Below are positions 21,412 to 64,000 of a DNA stretch of 64,000 nt, piece after piece. Numbering within the stretch: position 1 is the first letter of the stretch; each line of letters begins with the position of its first letter. The notes under the pieces are model-generated. The model was not told where the DNA came from. It did no database searches and saw only the letters and a program-made list of their open reading frames with translations. Source of the stretch: Gammaproteobacteria bacterium (GTDB lineage Bacteria > Pseudomonadota > Gammaproteobacteria > SZUA-229); the NCBI GenBank assembly GCA_015488885.1, contig WFMW01000057.1, positions 62,001 through 126,000 on the forward strand, in the 5' to 3' direction. Made by a program: the position numbers and the translations under genes.

Positions 21412-22095
21412 TCAGGTGACAGTAACAATGCGTTTTTGTACCCACTTCATTACTATGCTATAAACTTCATCAATATTATATTGTGTCGTATCAACAATGA
21501 TTGCATCGTCAGCAGGTTTAAGCGGTGCACTAGCCCGATTCATATCCCGTTGATCACGATGTTGCAAGTCTTCAGTGAGATTCGCTAGGTTAACATCTAT
21601 TCCCTTTTCTTTCAACTGCTTATAACGTCTATTTGCTCTTTCTCCAGGTGTAGCCGTTAAATAAATTTTAAGTGATGCATCAGGAAAAACCACCGTCCCC
21701 ATATCACGGCCATCGGCAACCAGACCTGGTGAACGCAAAAAAGCCCGCTGTCGCGCCAATAGAGCCTCACGTACGGCTGGCATGGCTGCTACTTTTGAGG
21801 CCAGAACACCTACCTCTTCACTGCGAATAAGCTGGTTAACTTCTTCATTATCCAGATAAATTTCAAGATTACCCCCATCCTCACGGTATTCTACCGCCAG
21901 TGATTTTGCCAGCATCGCAATACATTCTTCATCGGGCATTACATTTTCACGTGACACCTTTAATGCCGTCAGACGATACAGAGAACCACTATCGAGAATA
22001 TGCCAGCCCAGATTTCTTGCAACAAGCAGACAGATGGTGCCTTTACCTACGCCACTTGGGCCATCCAGACAAATCACTGCTGGCTTATTCATCAC
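21412..22095 (-). CDS. cmk: Cytidylate kinase
   Basis: Cmk phosphorylates CMP and dCMP. The 227-residue protein has the P-loop LDGPSGVGKGT, LDSGSLYR, the DGRDMGTVVFPDA segment that binds substrate, and the lid region RANRRYKQL. Its start (22095, or the adjacent Met at 22092) overlaps the aroA end by about 11 bp, indicating translational coupling in the aroA-cmk-rpsA order. Confidence 0.97.
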   Translation of the reverse strand: MMNKPAVICLDGPSGVGKGTICLLVARNLGWHILDSGSLYRLTALKVSRENVMPDEECIAMLAKSLAVEYREDGGNLEIYLDNEEVNQLIRSEEVGVLASKVAAMPAVREALLARQRAFLRSPGLVADGRDMGTVVFPDASLKIYLTATPGERANRRYKQLKEKGIDVNLANLTEDLQHRDQRDMNRASAPLKPADDAIIVDTTQYNIDEVYSIVMKWVQKRIVTVT

Positions 22096-23422
22096 ACACC
22101 TGAATAGTCATACCGGCAATCTCGGCAAGTCTGGCAAAACCCGGGAATGAAGTATTGACGTTATCACAGTCTTCAATGTGGATGGCACCATCACTGCGTA
22201 GTGCCGCCATCGTAAACGCCATTGCAATACGGTGATCATCATGACTACCCACCACACCACCATGAAAAGCCACCATATCCGCTGCCCCCTGAATAATCAT
22301 ACCATCGTGGGTAGCGACCGCATCAACGCCGAGAGCTTGCAGACCATCGGCCATTACCTGAATGCGATCACATTCTTTTACCCGTAATTCTTCAGCACCA
22401 GTGATGCGGGTTTCGCCTTCAGCACAGGCAGCCGCAACAAATAAGACAGGAAACTCATCAATCGCCAGCGGTACCAGTGTTTCCGGAATATGAATCCCCT
22501 GCAAACGAGCACTGCGCACACAGATATCAGCCACTGGCTCACCGCCAACTTCACGTTCATTTAATAACGTAAGATCCGCCCCCATTAGTTTCAGGATTTC
22601 GATAATACCAGTACGGGTCGGATTGATACCAACATGTTCCAGCACAATCTCCGAGCCGGTCGAAATTGTGGCACCCACCATAAAAAAAGCTGCAGAAGAA
22701 ATATCTGCCGGCACATCTATATCGGTAGCTTTTAATATCGCCTGACCTGTAACACAGACGGTAAGGCCTTGTTTGTGCCTGTTAATCGTCACCGGCCATC
22801 CAAAAGCTTTTAACATACGTTCAGTATGATCTCGGGTCGTTGCCGGCTCGGTCACACAGCTAGTCCCTTCAGCATAGAGCCCAGCTAGCAAACAGCATGA
22901 CTTAACCTGCGCACTGGCCATCGGCAAGGTATACTGCACCGGCTTGAGTTGCTGTCTCCCGGTAATTTTCAATGGCGGCCTGCCACCCTCGGCAGTTTTA
23001 ACTTTTGCACCCATTAATGTCAGCGGGTCGGTCACCCGCTGCATTGGACGTTTTGATAACGAAGCATCTCCACGCAGTTCAAGATCAAAAGCCTGACCCG
23101 CAAGCAGACCTGCCAACAGGCGCATGGAAGTACCCGAATTACCCACATTCAGGGGCGCAGCAGGCGACTGCAAACCATGCATACCAACACCATGAATACT
23201 TACTCTGCCATCATCAGGGCCATCAATTTTTACCCCCATGGCACGGAAGGCACGCAGGGTATTCAGACTGTCTTCACCATCAAGAAAACCACTGATATGA
23301 CTGACACCTTCAGCAATAGCACCAAACATAATAGAACGATGGGAAATAGATTTATCACCCGGCACACGAATCCGCCCCAGTAGTGTCCGACACTGGTAGC
23401 CGGGTTGCACAATAAATTTCAT
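22085..23422 (-). CDS. aroA: 3-phosphoshikimate 1-carboxyvinyltransferase (EPSP synthase)
   Basis: AroA joins PEP to shikimate 3-phosphate in the shikimate pathway. The 445-residue protein has PGDKSISHRS near the N-terminus, NVGNSGTSMRLLAGLL, PMRPKQRV-like KRPMQRV, and the C-terminal ELRVKECDRI and DDHRIAM segments. In Pseudomonas aroA follows tyrA; here a ~6.7 kb block separates them. It is divergent from ssrA with a 212-bp promoter gap. Confidence 0.97.
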   Translation of the reverse strand: MKFIVQPGYQCRTLLGRIRVPGDKSISHRSIMFGAIAEGVSHISGFLDGEDSLNTLRAFRAMGVKIDGPDDGRVSIHGVGMHGLQSPAAPLNVGNSGTSMRLLAGLLAGQAFDLELRGDASLSKRPMQRVTDPLTLMGAKVKTAEGGRPPLKITGRQQLKPVQYTLPMASAQVKSCCLLAGLYAEGTSCVTEPATTRDHTERMLKAFGWPVTINRHKQGLTVCVTGQAILKATDIDVPADISSAAFFMVGATISTGSEIVLEHVGINPTRTGIIEILKLMGADLTLLNEREVGGEPVADICVRSARLQGIHIPETLVPLAIDEFPVLFVAAACAEGETRITGAEELRVKECDRIQVMADGLQALGVDAVATHDGMIIQGAADMVAFHGGVVGSHDDHRIAMAFTMAALRSDGAIHIEDCDNVNTSFPGFARLAEIAGMTIQVCDE

Positions 23423-23634: not shown

Positions 23635-23995
23635 GGGGATGACACGGCTTCGACGTGGGTAGCGAAACCTGAGGTGCATGCCGAGGTGCGGTTTCCTCGT
23701 AAAACCAGTCGCAAAACCTATAGTTGCCAACGACGACAACTACGCTTTAGCAGCTTAAGAACCTGCTCAAAGCCCTCGGCCTGATGTGTGCTTATACGCT
23801 CAGATAACCGGGGTCGACTCATATAAGCTCGCGATGAAGTTTGTTCTGGGTGGATTCGCTAAAACCTAACAGAAATCGCGCTATATTTTCCCTGCTCGTC
23901 GGGTAATACAGCGTTAAATCAATAGACGAAATAAGCATGTAGAGCCGATGGCGGAGTGCTTGCGGACGCGGGTTCGATTCCCGCCATCTCCACCA
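23635..23995 (+). ncRNA. ssrA: Transfer-messenger RNA (tmRNA)
   Basis: This RNA rescues stalled ribosomes and tags the nascent chains. The 5' end GGGGATGACACGGCTTCGAC and the 3' end GGGTTCGATTCCCGCCATCT then CCACCA form the tRNA-like domain; the CCA is encoded. The tag frame GCC AAC GAC GAC AAC TAC GCT TTA GCA GCT TAA gives ANDDNYALAA, one residue from the E. coli tag (Glu4 to Asp). Length is about 361 nt. A TATAAT box precedes it and a terminator follows. Confidence 0.97.
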
Positions 23996-24446: not shown

Positions 24447-24481
24447 AATATCGATCATATCGATATTAACTATCATATAAT
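24447..24481 (+). promoter_or_regulatory. Promoter with palindromic operator candidate upstream of the DsrC-like gene
   Basis: A perfect inverted repeat AATATCGAT-CAT-ATCGATATT (24447-24467) lies just upstream of a TATAAT box at 24476-24481 and covers the expected -35 position. A dimeric repressor binding there would block the promoter; that role is inferred from position only. The gene start follows 66 bases later. Confidence 0.5.
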
Positions 24482-24547
24482 ATCGTTTGACCGATACAAA
24501 TCGTGATTGATAAAATGCATCATCCTTTACCAATGATGAGGTTGATT

Positions 24548-24880
24548 ATGAATACTGAAGTAAAAGTGAATCTGGATAGCGAAGGTTATCTCGTTGATCC
24601 AGAAGACTGGGATAAAACAGTTGCCGCAGATCTTGCTGCACAGGAAGAACTGACATTAACCGATGAATACTGGCAGATTCTTGGCTTTATGCGTGAATAC
24701 TGGATGGAGAAAAAAGTCGCCCCGGATGTACGTCATGTGGTTGGTTTTTTGATGGAGACAGGTAACTACAGCAAAAAAGACGCCAAAACCCAACTATTTC
24801 ACCTGTTCCCTTACGGGTATGTGAAACAGGCGTGCAAAATAGCCGGAATGCAACGTCCGCGTGGCTGGAGTACCGGTTGA
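24548..24880 (+). CDS. DsrC/TusE-family protein lacking the terminal catalytic Cys
   Basis: A 110-residue DsrC-fold protein: DSEGYLVDPEDWD, LTDEYWQILGFMREYW, VGFLMETG and the C-terminal arm LFPYGYVKQACKIAG. In DsrC the arm carries two Cys (KQACKIAGLPKPTGC); TusE keeps only the last. Here the first Cys is present but the tail reads MQRPRGWSTG, so the final, normally conserved Cys is missing. Persulfide relay as in TusE or DsrC is doubtful; a regulatory or adaptor role is possible. I chose ATG 24548, with GAGG 8 bases upstream, over the in-frame start at 24503. No dsr or tus genes are near. Confidence 0.85.
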   Translation: MNTEVKVNLDSEGYLVDPEDWDKTVAADLAAQEELTLTDEYWQILGFMREYWMEKKVAPDVRHVVGFLMETGNYSKKDAKTQLFHLFPYGYVKQACKIAGMQRPRGWSTG

Positions 24881-24960: not shown

Positions 24961-25000
24961 GATGATATACATTTGCACAGGTGTGCAAACGTATATCATC
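24961..25000. repeat. 40-bp near-perfect palindrome
   Basis: GATGATATACATTTGCACAG followed by GTGTGCAAACGTATATCATC. The two halves pair at every position except one (A versus G of the complement at the tenth/eleventh base) with the axis in the middle and almost no loop. Such symmetry suits a cruciform or a large dimeric operator better than a terminator. It sits 80 bp after the DsrC-like gene and 5 bp before the small ORF at 25005. Confidence 0.85.
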
Positions 25001-25433: not shown

Positions 25434-26495
25434 ATGAATACACAGTGGAATCAGTTTCTGACTGAAAACGATGTTAATCTCAACACGATCAAAACACAAA
25501 ATCAGTCTGCTGGAACATCCTTTGCGGGCGACACCGACATGCTTTGTGATTTATCGGCTTATGGTCTGATTGTTATTGCCGGTTCCGATGCCATGACATT
25601 TATGCAGGGTCAGTTTACCAATGATGTCAGTCTGGTCAATGCTCGGACCGGTCAGCTTAATGCGGTGTGTAATAACAAGGGCCGGGTTATTGCTGATTTC
25701 ATATTATTTCAGTATCAGCAAAATTATTTTCTCAGCCTGCATCACAGCATGGTGGAAACGGTTATTGAACACCTTCAAAAGTACATTGTTCACGCGCAGG
25801 TGGCGATACAGGATGTCAGCGATCAACTGGTACATCTCGGTATCTGCGGCAAGCAGGCCTGCAATAAACTTGCTGAACTTTTACAAATCGATGCCGCCAC
25901 ATTTTTTAATAAAACCGCTGATAACAAACAACCCTGTGCCGTCTATGCCAGTGATGATTATATCGTTATCAATAACACCGATATACAAGCACGCTGCCAT
26001 GTTTTTGCGCAGACAGAAAACGCACAAACCTGCTGGCAGCAGATCAGTGAATTTGCAACACCGGTTCAAGCTAATGCCTGGGAAGGCCTTAATATTCAGG
26101 CTGGTCTGCCCGTTATTACCAAAGTGACCAGTGAGGCTTTTGTGCCACAGATGCTTAACCTCGAATTACTGGGCGGCGTGAGTTTTAAAAAAGGCTGTTA
26201 TACCGGTCAGGAAATTGTCGCCAGAATGCATTATCTGGGTAAACTCAAGAAACGGATGTATAAAATTTTTATTGATGCGGCGGAGACATCGCCGCCCCGG
26301 CCAGGTGATAAAATTTTTGCCCAACAGGCGAGTGCTGGACAGAATACCGGTATGTTAGTCAATGTACAGCCTGCTGTGAATCATGGCTTTGAGGCACTGG
26401 CTGTTATCCAGATTGCTGATAGCCAGTCAGCCTTAAAACTGCATGACGCAAATGGCCCTGCTATCAAGCTTGAAACCCTGCCTTATTCTTTTTGA
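25434..26495 (+). CDS. ygfZ: Folate-binding protein YgfZ
   Basis: YgfZ is a GcvT-like tetrahydrofolate-binding protein needed for full activity of some iron-sulfur enzymes such as MiaB. The 353-residue protein has the diagnostic motif KGCYTGQEIVARMHYLGKLK near residue 258 (with the reactive Cys), and the N-terminal MTFMQGQFTNDV segment. It is alone on the plus strand, convergent with rfbD (51 bp between stops). Confidence 0.95.
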   Translation: MNTQWNQFLTENDVNLNTIKTQNQSAGTSFAGDTDMLCDLSAYGLIVIAGSDAMTFMQGQFTNDVSLVNARTGQLNAVCNNKGRVIADFILFQYQQNYFLSLHHSMVETVIEHLQKYIVHAQVAIQDVSDQLVHLGICGKQACNKLAELLQIDAATFFNKTADNKQPCAVYASDDYIVINNTDIQARCHVFAQTENAQTCWQQISEFATPVQANAWEGLNIQAGLPVITKVTSEAFVPQMLNLELLGGVSFKKGCYTGQEIVARMHYLGKLKKRMYKIFIDAAETSPPRPGDKIFAQQASAGQNTGMLVNVQPAVNHGFEALAVIQIADSQSALKLHDANGPAIKLETLPYSF

Positions 26496-59635: not shown

Positions 59636-62600
59636 CTAAAATGGAAGACTAAGTCTCAACTCAGTAGAATAAATAGAAATATGATTATCAATCATTCTAT
59701 TATGCTCGAGACTGATTGACAGGTTTTTTCTTGTAATAAGATCCACACCAAAATTCACATTAAACAGGTTCTGCCCAATATCAACCGGCACCTGCATATA
59801 ATCAGCCATTGAAGGTGCTGCCTGAAAGCCAGCTAAAACAGTGGTATTAGAAGCTGAGAGCTTATGCTGTAGAGAGAAATTCATAAAAAAGCGTAACTTC
59901 GTATTATCGCTCAACATGCCTTCCATCCCCGTTTCAACACCTGGGCGTAAAAAACGATGTGTTTCATTATTTGCTGGCAAGATAAGGTTTAATGCACCTG
60001 CACCTGTTTCCGTTGCCCTTTTTGCCTTGATCTGCGTTACCCCAAAATCAACATAGGAAAATAAATACCCTGTATTATTTTCAATATCATGAGATAAACG
60101 CAATAAACCACCAACAGTATTCAATCGACGATTTATATGGGTTGAAAAAGCATTTACCAGATTACCCTGACGTAAAGTATTCGTATCACTTTGACCAATC
60201 GATACTACTGCAGCAAGTTTAGTACCCTTTGCACGATATTTTAGAGCCAGAGCAAACTGATTCGTATCCCCTTTTGAATGCCAGCGATCACTATAACCCT
60301 GACCATTGCTATGTGCCTGTGATATGGCGATACCAGTTGACCAGCCTGTACTAAATGTTTTTTGTAGTCCTATAGAAAAAGCATCAGTTGTAAAGCGTGA
60401 ACCTTTGTAGTCATCATAGGCATCGTGCGATATATTTTCAGCCTGGTATGATGACCAAAAACAACTGCCTTCGCGGGTAAATCGATATTTTCCATTAGCT
60501 TCATGACAACTCAGTAATGATTGTAAAAATTTATCACTATCATTTATCAATTTTAATTGTTGTTCACCATAAAAATCTGGGCTTAGTTGTGATAATGCAT
60601 TGCGATAGCTTTTATCATCAGGAATATATAACAAATGTTTCACCACATCAGCCAATACTGGCGAACTGCCTGCATTTTGAACTCTGTTGAAATAATCACC
60701 AACCCGAAGCAAATTTAAGCCCATACCAGCAGGTGAAAAATCAACGTTATAATTTAATGTTGCCTGGTTAGCATCTGGATACTGTAGCTCAGTTGTAAAT
60801 ACTCTGGATTTAAACGTTGATAACGCTATACCATTATCTATTACGCCCTGCTTACCGGAAAACACGACTTTAGAAAAATTGCCTGCCAGAACATTTTGAG
60901 GATTGAGCAAAGATAATGTAAGTTTTCCTGCCAGAGAAACAGTGCCTGTCGCGGCAATGTTATCAACTTTATCAGTACCAAAATCCAGCTCAATAAGATC
61001 CTTAGCATTTATGGATTGTGTGAAACTCCCCGACAGTTCTGTATCTTGAGCGAGATCTGTATCCCCAGTTGCCATTGTTCCATTATTCACTAACATATTT
61101 CCAGCAGCTCCCAGATAAACGACCCGTCCGGGAACAAAAACTGCCTGCTCATGGTTAACAAAAGAATTATTACCCTCACCCAGATAAACCTGGCCATCGA
61201 GTATCTTATAATTATCAACCTGATCATTTCCGCTGGTGGCATAAATTGCCATTCCACTAACCATATCTTTAGTCATAACGCTACCATGACTAATAAATTT
61301 ATTATCCACACCACCTGACATAACCAGTGCTGCACCACCGGTGCCTCCGACCATTTGCTTACCCTGCGGCAGATTGATTATAATATTGCCTTCACCATCA
61401 GCAGCAACAGATTGCGCAAAAACAGCAATACCGTTTGCCCCGCTGGAAACCATATTACCGTTGACATTAAGATGAATATCAGCTGACGTGCCATGACCCC
61501 CAGCACTATTAATAAATAAACGATCAAGCGCACCGCCACCACCACCTAAACTTTGTGCAAGCAGAGCAATGGAATTATCACCGGTTGCAGTAATATTACC
61601 TGTCTGATCAAAAGTAATATTTCCACCATTACCAGAATTATCTGCATGAGTGGCAATACCAATATTCTGCGCTGATAAATCAGTAAAAACAGTACCACCA
61701 CCGCCACCAATACTTTGTAAAACAATTCCGTGTGATAAAGCACCTGTGGTAAGAATATCACCGTTATTGCTAATATTAATATTGCCACCATCACCCGTAG
61801 CTCCATTGGCACCACCAAAATTAACACTAAGGGTACCGACGCCACTGATACGCGTATCACCACCACCGCCACCAATACTCTGAATAAGCATACCCAGGGA
61901 ACGATCACCGGTTGTTTGTGTGTTGCCACGATAAGTATTGTTAATACTGCCAGCAGAATTATTCAAACCACCATTCGCCCCCATAGCAAGCACAGTAGAC
62001 GCATTACTGTCATCAATAGTCTGAGATCCTGGTAATGCCAGGCCATACAGTGAATTGTAATCGCTTACCGTCAGCTTCGAATGCACGAATCGCGATGTTC
62101 TAACAGGGGATACTATAGACAATGCTGTTACTGCCCCGCCTGTCGCAGTCGAACCTGCACCTGTCGAATCGGGGACTCTTTTCACCGCTACCGTTAATTC
62201 ACCGCCGCCGCCACCAATAGATTGAACAGACGTTCCTTTTGATGTATCACCCGACGTTGATACATTGCCCGTACGATCAGAATTAATATTGCCGCCATTG
62301 CCATCATTCGTCCCTTCACTACCAAGCAATAAATCAAGCTTGATTTGTGCATCCTTATTAATAACAACATTCTCATTCGCATTGCCACCGCCGCCACCAA
62401 CGGATTGCGTACTTGATGCAGAAGAATTTTCACCTAGTGCTATTAAATCACCCAGATGTTTTGTCACAAAGTCACCTGCTGCCCCAATACCGGCTTTTAT
62501 CGCCCCCAGTTTCAGTGTATTTGAAACAAAGGCTAATTCCTTGGCTCCACCACCTTGCGGGCTACCATTAGTAACAGGATTAATCACACTGCCCGTGCCT

Positions 62601-64000
62601 TTTTTCTGTGCAGTCTTACTTACATCCAGAAACATATCGACATTGCCACCACCACCATTAACGGATTGGGCCAGATAGGCATGGCTGTTGTTACCGAGCA
62701 CCTGAATAGTACCCTTAGTATTCACTGTCACATTACCGGCAGTACCACTTGTACCATCGCGGCTACCAAGAACTACAGGGACAAGCATATTCGTTGCCAT
62801 CCAGACCGGGCTGGAAATCGAAAAACCAACTGCCCCACCACCACCGCCAACGGATTGGGCAAAAATACCATAAGTATTATCACCATGGGTAATGATTGAG
62901 CCATTGTTATTAACCACAACATTGGCACTATTAGCACCGGCACCGCCGGCACCACCAAGAGCAAAATTTGTCAGTAACGGCAGGGGATTTTTCCTTGGAT
63001 TTGTCAGCAAATTACTAGACAATGCCATGGCAAAGGCACCATTACCACCGCCACCACCAATAGACTGGGCAAAAACACCGTCTGAGCCTTTGCCAAATAC
63101 TTCAATATTGCCATTATTTATCACGCTAACATCGCCGGAAGCATTGCCATTGCCCCCTTTACCCCCAATGGCAACAGCAATAGAATGGCTTGCCGTATCA
63201 CCGTTACCCAAAACCATATTTCCGGAAAGACTTACACCCCCATTACCTCCACCACCACCAATAGACTGAGCAATAATACCGTGAGATTCTGTGCCATAAG
63301 TAGTAACCCCAATATTATTAGTCACCGTGACTTTGCCGCCCTTGCCCCCTGTACCTCCAGCGCCACCAAGACTAAAAGCAAGCGAATTAGCCGGGTTTTC
63401 TTCACCCACCTTTGTTGAAGCATTTGCCGTAACTACTGTACTACCTGTACCACCACCGCCGCCAACACTCATGGCAAAAATTCCGTGAGAGTTAGTCTGT
63501 GCAGTAATAATTTCACCTGCTGTACCATCAATATTCCTTAAATTTTTGACATCAACATTACCGCCCTGACCACCTGTGCCACCCTGACCACCGATACCGA
63601 GACTTATTTTGTTACCCGCTCCTTTACTGGAAAGCGATGCCGTGACCACCTGCTTAGCATTACCACCACCCCCACCAATGGACTGTGCAAACACCCCGAT
63701 AGCACCACGACCACTGGTGCCAATGCTACCGCGATTCGTAACCTGAACATTGCCACCAGTGGCACCATCACCACCATTGCCACCAATAGCAACCGCTAAT
63801 TGAGTTCCTTTATCGGTTGATTTATTTCTCAGTGTATTAATCGTCATGCCGCCATTACCGCCACCGCCGCCAAGACTTTGCCCCAGAATGCCATAAGCGT
63901 CATCTCCCGCAGTGACAATGATGCCTTTATTTTCTATTGTAACTTTGCCTGCAACAGATCCAGTTCCTCCGCGACCACCCATAGACAAAACTGCACCAGT
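59636..64000 (-). CDS. Giant Gly-rich autotransporter with beta-barrel (N-terminus off window)
   Basis: The window holds the C-terminal 1,455 codons; the frame stays open to base 64000 (the track's start at 63988 is only an internal TTG). The passenger has at least 12 repeats ending in SIGGGGGNGG-type blocks (AQSIGGGGG, AMSVGGGGG, AQSLGGGGG), each after an N-G-x-I-x-T-x-G-x-x-S-x-G-I strand set, as in a beta-helix or related fold; a degenerate copy (SVAADGEGN) closes the array. Residues from about 1185 form an autotransporter barrel, ending LRLSLPF. Glycine blocks are encoded by varied GGN codons, which keeps the DNA repeats imperfect. Exact role unknown; surface adhesion is only a family guess. 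Confidence 0.85.
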   Translation of the reverse strand, partial: TGAVLSMGGRGGTGSVAGKVTIENKGIIVTAGDDAYGILGQSLGGGGGNGGMTINTLRNKSTDKGTQLAVAIGGNGGDGATGGNVQVTNRGSIGTSGRGAIGVFAQSIGGGGGNAKQVVTASLSSKGAGNKISLGIGGQGGTGGQGGNVDVKNLRNIDGTAGEIITAQTNSHGIFAMSVGGGGGTGSTVVTANASTKVGEENPANSLAFSLGGAGGTGGKGGKVTVTNNIGVTTYGTESHGIIAQSIGGGGGNGGVSLSGNMVLGNGDTASHSIAVAIGGKGGNGNASGDVSVINNGNIEVFGKGSDGVFAQSIGGGGGNGAFAMALSSNLLTNPRKNPLPLLTNFALGGAGGAGANSANVVVNNNGSIITHGDNTYGIFAQSVGGGGGAVGFSISSPVWMATNMLVPVVLGSRDGTSGTAGNVTVNTKGTIQVLGNNSHAYLAQSVNGGGGNVDMFLDVSKTAQKKGTGSVINPVTNGSPQGGGAKELAFVSNTLKLGAIKAGIGAAGDFVTKHLGDLIALGENSSASSTQSVGGGGGNANENVVINKDAQIKLDLLLGSEGTNDGNGGNINSDRTGNVSTSGDTSKGTSVQSIGGGGGELTVAVKRVPDSTGAGSTATGGAVTALSIVSPVRTSRFVHSKLTVSDYNSLYGLALPGSQTIDDSNASTVLAMGANGGLNNSAGSINNTYRGNTQTTGDRSLGMLIQSIGGGGGDTRISGVGTLSVNFGGANGATGDGGNINISNNGDILTTGALSHGIVLQSIGGGGGTVFTDLSAQNIGIATHADNSGNGGNITFDQTGNITATGDNSIALLAQSLGGGGGALDRLFINSAGGHGTSADIHLNVNGNMVSSGANGIAVFAQSVAADGEGNIIINLPQGKQMVGGTGGAALVMSGGVDNKFISHGSVMTKDMVSGMAIYATSGNDQVDNYKILDGQVYLGEGNNSFVNHEQAVFVPGRVVYLGAAGNMLVNNGTMATGDTDLAQDTELSGSFTQSINAKDLIELDFGTDKVDNIAATGTVSLAGKLTLSLLNPQNVLAGNFSKVVFSGKQGVIDNGIALSTFKSRVFTTELQYPDANQATLNYNVDFSPAGMGLNLLRVGDYFNRVQNAGSSPVLADVVKHLLYIPDDKSYRNALSQLSPDFYGEQQLKLINDSDKFLQSLLSCHEANGKYRFTREGSCFWSSYQAENISHDAYDDYKGSRFTTDAFSIGLQKTFSTGWSTGIAISQAHSNGQGYSDRWHSKGDTNQFALALKYRAKGTKLAAVVSIGQSDTNTLRQGNLVNAFSTHINRRLNTVGGLLRLSHDIENNTGYLFSYVDFGVTQIKAKRATETGAGALNLILPANNETHRFLRPGVETGMEGMLSDNTKLRFFMNFSLQHKLSASNTTVLAGFQAAPSMADYMQVPVDIGQNLFNVNFGVDLITRKNLSISLEHNRMIDNHISIYSTELRLSLPF

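Follow-up and report, generated by a model that had tools for sequence, protein, structure and literature searches.

What can a DsrC-like protein do when its C-terminal arm keeps the cysteine known as CysB and has a tryptophan in place of the sulfur-carrying CysA? The question is posed by an intact open reading frame of 110 amino acids with an ATG start (24548..24880, plus strand), located in the window, that is, the whole 64,000-nucleotide stretch of DNA that was analysed. A ribosome-binding site, GAGG, can be read on the same strand six nucleotides 5' of the ATG (24538..24541). The product clearly belongs to the TusE/DsrC/DsvC superfamily, as it scores 103 bits against Pfam DsrC PF04358 (cut-off 24.9) and 93.2 bits against NCBIfam TIGR03342 (cut-off 53.5). 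Its C-terminus reads QACKIAGMQRPRGWSTG, and the last residues, RPRGWSTG, give the name WSTG protein that we use here. When its arm (FPYGYVKQACKIAGMQRPRGWSTG) is aligned with that of the canonical DsrC of the same genome (FPYGPGKQACKYAGLPKPTGCV), C96 (codon 24833..24835, plus strand) takes the CysB position and W107 (codon 24866..24868, plus strand), 11 residues further on, takes the CysA position, with no cysteine beyond C96. A structure search with the AlphaFold model (pLDDT 85.6) returned eight significant PDB matches, every one from the DsrC family (2xsj, 1yx3, 2v4j, 1sau, 3or1/3or2, 7syb and 1ji8; TM to the query 0.70-0.78), while the best winged-helix match was LexA, at E = 0.5.

A single search across 84,980 species genomes identified about 80 WSTG loci, largely in beta- and gammaproteobacteria, with products at 50-73% identity; a culturable host of one orthologue is Parasulfuritortus cantonensis (L090). 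Among 84 aligned orthologues the W-S tail is present in all 84 and CysB in 83, and in none is there a cysteine after CysB; the sole exception at the CysB site (L011) carries a valine. The genome of this protein (G037) encodes two WSTG proteins, L011 and L135, and apart from the valine the arm of the former is intact. In an alignment of 49 WSTG sequences conservation is highest in the arm, residues F87-I98, G100, M101, P104, R105, W107 and S108 being invariant. In a tree of 76 DsrC-family proteins, built on about 120 columns and unsure at its deeper forks, the WSTG proteins form a single clade of their own (support 96/98), outside the canonical DsrC cluster. Their sister is a second CysB-only clade, with proteins ending in LDL or LDV (100/92), and canonical DsrC comes next, weakly supported (91/75).

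The preliminary description had proposed that this protein retains CysB and lacks CysA, the reverse of the TusE pattern, and had pointed to a clade of orthologues with the same tail as possible support. Both the residues and the clade were found as described, and the pattern extends to the whole clade. A frameshift in the assembly, or orthologues with the final cysteine, had been named as what would speak against it, and these are excluded by the orthologues sharing the W-S tail. The loss of the catalytic cysteine might also suggest a decayed paralogue; this reading is ruled out, since the tail is the best-conserved part of orthologues that stand at 50-73% identity, and the operator described below is conserved as well. 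Decay and assembly error, taken together, have a negligible probability.

The subfamily is closely tied to the reverse Dsr pathway. In an even sample of the class comprising 274 genomes, with WSTG carriers called at E <= 1e-25, dsrA was detected in 33 of 34 carriers versus 59 of 240 non-carriers (Fisher p = 6e-17). One of the 34, G166, is possibly a member of the sister clade, as its protein is 43% identical and the match stops at residue 104. The converse fails, as a WSTG protein is encoded in only about a third of the dsrA genomes of this sample. In the 50 genomes behind the orthologue loci, dsrA scored above the cut-off in 43 and was found as split pieces in four more. Sequence comparison shows the WSTG proteins to be a DsrC-like subfamily in its own right, kept under selection in sulfur oxidisers of the reverse-Dsr type.

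Five members of the DsrC family are encoded in the source genome, which measures 2.63 Mb in 72 contigs. Beside the WSTG protein, these are a canonical DsrC (L001) in the dsrEFHCM cluster, a separate TusE-like protein with CysA only (L002), a Cys-less protein ending in RKGGY (L004, G000:C57:20023-20310, outside the window) and a CysB-only protein ending in SFGSAA (L005). The gene for the RKGGY protein (L004, L155) adjoins a Cas6/Cmx6-like gene (TIGR02807, 126 bits, above the cut-off) in the vicinity of the dsr cluster. Its tail is preserved in relatives, and further DsrC-like tail types were found in related genomes. A separate tusE had been suggested as something to look for, and since a TusE-like protein and a canonical DsrC are both present, the WSTG protein replaces neither of them.

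Upstream of the gene we found a predicted LysR-type operator, TATCG-N7-CGATA-N14-ATATCGTTTG (24449..24489, plus strand, no mismatches), the downstream half-site of which overlaps the -35 hexamer of a sigma-70-like promoter, TTGACC-18-TAAAAT (24487..24516, plus strand), recognised by consensus match only (10 of 12 positions). A half-site placed over the -35 box is the arrangement expected for a LysR-type activator, and the layout of the WSTG promoter would fit such a regulator. No match to the box appeared in 100 shuffles of the window. The upstream regions of the orthologues have in common the sequence TATCG-N7-CGATA-N14-ATATCGTTTGAC, about 95-125 bp 5' of the start. Matches to this sequence are bimodal: about 34 loci score 18-22 of 22 and the others at most 16, a value comparable to that of shuffled sequences (11-16). 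The regulon was defined by the pattern TATCG-N7-CGATA-N15-WATCGTTTG, to which the WSTG box shows no mismatch. The operator is kept even at orthologue loci with no adjacent LysR gene, and at many orthologues (betaproteobacterial and Beggiatoa-like) box and LysR are both absent.

No adjoining operon was found around the gene in the window. Its neighbours are aroA on the opposite strand (22085-23422), a tmRNA gene with the tag ANDDNYALAA, lying between aroA and the WSTG gene (23635-23995), and a YgfZ/GcvT-like gene (25434-26495). The WSTG gene is probably transcribed on its own, from a promoter under LysR control. A long inverted repeat, GATGATATACGTTTGCACACCTGTGCAAATGTATATCATC (24961-25000), lies 3' of the gene, and the far end of the window (59636-63988) encodes a large glycine-rich repeat protein with a beta-barrel-like end, probably an autotransporter, that runs off the window.

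Two perfect copies of the operator occur in the source genome, in which the reversed control pattern gave none. The second copy is located between a divergent LysR gene at G000:C63:3892-4713, HdfR-like and 63% identical to the LysR bordering the orthologues, and a cluster that encodes HPP, a nirB-type siroheme nitrite reductase, a Rieske protein (nirD-type), a molybdopterin reductase, a ferredoxin-DmsC-type subunit and mobB. The name nitrate reductase for the molybdopterin enzyme is an assignment from context, its large subunit giving the best scores against formate dehydrogenase models, none above the cut-off. In the 274-genome sample, in which the reversed control was again unmatched, 14 of 16 near-perfect sites lie 5' of genes for WSTG proteins (10), for a Cys-less DsrC paralogue with an RTKGEH tail (2) or for HPP (2), and in 58 relatives, a set that overlaps the former in a few genomes, a WSTG, RTKGEH, HPP or CBS-domain gene follows 13 of the 14 sites that have no more than one mismatch; the pattern was derived from WSTG promoters, and the independent part of both counts is that contributed by the HPP, CBS and RTKGEH sites. 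All together, the operator matches place the WSTG gene and the HPP-nirBD cluster in one putative LysR regulon, defined by the predicted operator.

The RTKGEH-tail proteins are about 213 amino acids long, their Cys-less DsrC domain being joined to an N-terminal domain of unknown type; their genes (L163 3983-4624, L164 3347-3988, L165 2675-3316 and L167 2024-2665) carry the same operator and are often found just after those for HPP and CBS proteins. In a relative, a weaker operator with two mismatches was observed about 400 bp 5' of a gene for a Crp/Fnr-like regulator (L173 1476-2174, G023:C39).

In the gene neighbourhoods, the LysR gene flanks 28 of 87 orthologue loci and none of 40 random control regions (p = 6e-6), HPP in 11 of 87 versus none of 40 (p = 0.017), and pooled nitrogen-oxide genes in 22 of 87 versus 4 of 40 (p = 0.06, borderline), counts that are biased and suggestive only, as the query genes were chosen from these same loci. 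HPP proteins include cyanobacterial and chloroplast nitrite transporters (Maeda 2014, as reported in PMC4137279). In four Thioglobus/Ruthturnera-type loci the WSTG gene follows narG, narH, narJ and narI, and in a Thiothrix MAG (L076) it is found between NapA-like and NapG-like genes. The source genome has neither NarG nor a canonical NapA, and thus any nitrate link there would run through the nir/nitrate-reductase-like cluster. Nitrate respiration was rejected as a general partner, because the two enzymes are missing there, their occurrence across the family does not go with that of the gene, and the pooled enrichment is borderline; HPP was likewise discarded as a phyletic marker, being common in genomes with or without the WSTG gene.

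Previous work on A. vinosum DsrC bears directly on what such an arm may do. Sulfur and sulfite bind exclusively to CysA, and replacing this residue with serine abolishes sulfur binding and strongly weakens the binding of DsrEFH; CysB (Cys100), on the other hand, binds neither sulfur nor sulfite and is dispensable for the binding of sulfur and of DsrEFH (PMC3397948). In sulfate reducers the DsrC arm occupies a cleft of DsrAB beside the siroheme (PMC3397948). Given the tryptophan at the CysA position and this dependence on CysA, the protein is not expected to relay persulfide by the known route, as the preliminary description had anticipated. At the same time, the docking part of the arm and CysB are conserved above all else, which argues that the arm has a partner.

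The reading that we favour, with a probability of roughly 40%, is that the WSTG protein acts as a regulator or adaptor of the DsrC type that relays no persulfide and links sulfur oxidation to the use of nitrogen oxides. The protein retains the fold of DsrC, CysB and the part of the arm used for docking, with an invariant tryptophan in place of the sulfur-carrying CysA, and would be made when nitrite or other nitrogen oxides are handled. Its DsrC-like arm may dock on a partner of DsrC, DsrAB being the first candidate, and HPP/CBS or LysR the next ones, and CysB might, but need not, act as a thiol switch. By docking without delivering sulfur it could tune the reverse-Dsr pathway to nitrogen-oxide use, acting as a brake on that pathway or protecting it, with nitrite as the possible signal. 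A more specific version, in which a nitrite-responsive LysR induces the protein together with a nitrite transporter and the tryptophan-ended arm plugs the DsrC channel of DsrAB, seems unlikely to us as a whole; a channel plugged in this way would keep both DsrC and nitrite, an analogue of the substrate sulfite, away from the siroheme.

The near-invariance of CysB can be read in another way, namely that C96 is itself persulfidated, nitrosated or engaged in a mixed disulfide, so that a single cysteine would relay or sense sulfane sulfur or NO. Its retention in the orthologues and in the LDL/LDV sister clade suggests that the thiol has a job; yet the equivalent Cys100 of A. vinosum binds no sulfur or sulfite (PMC3397948), one orthologue has a valine there in an otherwise intact arm, and the operator-sharing RTKGEH paralogue has no arm cysteine at all. 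We regard such a carrier as possible, though rather improbable. About the same likelihood may be given to a protein that makes no contact with DsrAB and instead works as partner or effector for either the LysR regulator or the HPP transporter, as PII does for nitrogen transporters. The LysR-HPP-CBS module stands beside various DsrC-like paralogues (WSTG, RTKGEH and LDV), as if these were interchangeable, whereas the near-strict co-occurrence with dsrA and the arm segment FPYG--KQACK-AG in common with DsrC point to a Dsr partner, and HPP is present in many genomes without a WSTG gene.

The preliminary description had guessed at a regulatory role, perhaps through DNA or protein binding. A role in regulation is in keeping with the regulon described above and has been suggested for some DsrC proteins (Venceslau 2014, as cited in PMC7787665), but DNA binding is unsupported, in that the structure search returned DsrC structures and a winged-helix match no better than LexA. 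That the protein is an RspA-like transcription factor acting on DNA is therefore quite improbable, and the non-relaying regulator or adaptor remains the preferred reading.

Sulfur oxidisers carry several DsrC-like paralogues, as in the Riftia symbiont with its several DsrC copies (PMC7787665), and the arm and tail now separate them. In the literature searched, no paper joining DsrC with LysR or HPP was found, nor were the definition of the WSTG clade, its operator or a regulon with HPP and nir genes. What appears to be new is the predicted LysR operator, the definition of the clade and the putative co-regulation with HPP and nir. One DsrC paralogue thereby gains a phylogenetic definition, a near-strict dsrAB link and a concrete, if predicted, LysR-box regulon shared with nitrite-handling genes, and the old question of what these paralogues do becomes directly testable.

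Compared with known systems, the WSTG protein resembles DsrC (TIGR03342) in fold (TM 0.73-0.78 to 2xsj, 1yx3, 2v4j and 1sau), in the arm segment LFPYG--KQACK-AG with its CysB and in its occurrence in dsrAB genomes. It differs from it in the tryptophan at +11, where canonical DsrC, defined by CysB and a penultimate CysA, has the latter, in an arm two residues longer that ends in STG, and in a gene that lies outside the dsr operon under its own, predicted LysR-controlled promoter. With TusE it shares fold, family and a single arm cysteine, but TusE has CysA without CysB, and the score against the TusE equivalog model is 69.5 bits (cut-off 191), a strict model under which the TusE-like protein of the source genome, at 81.6 bits, also falls below the cut-off. 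The function of DsrC and that of TusE are both excluded by these features. RspA proteins, the regulatory DsrC-like group of Venceslau 2014, reportedly lack CysA and have been proposed as regulatory and independent of conserved cysteines; the WSTG protein resembles them in the absent CysA and in the regulatory role proposed, and differs in its near-invariant CysB. The LDL/LDV-tail proteins, in turn, form the sister clade, have CysB only and are also encoded beside LysR and HPP (L166), but their tail is KL-LD(L/V) rather than WSTG, in these genomes usually FPYGYGQQACKIAGM.
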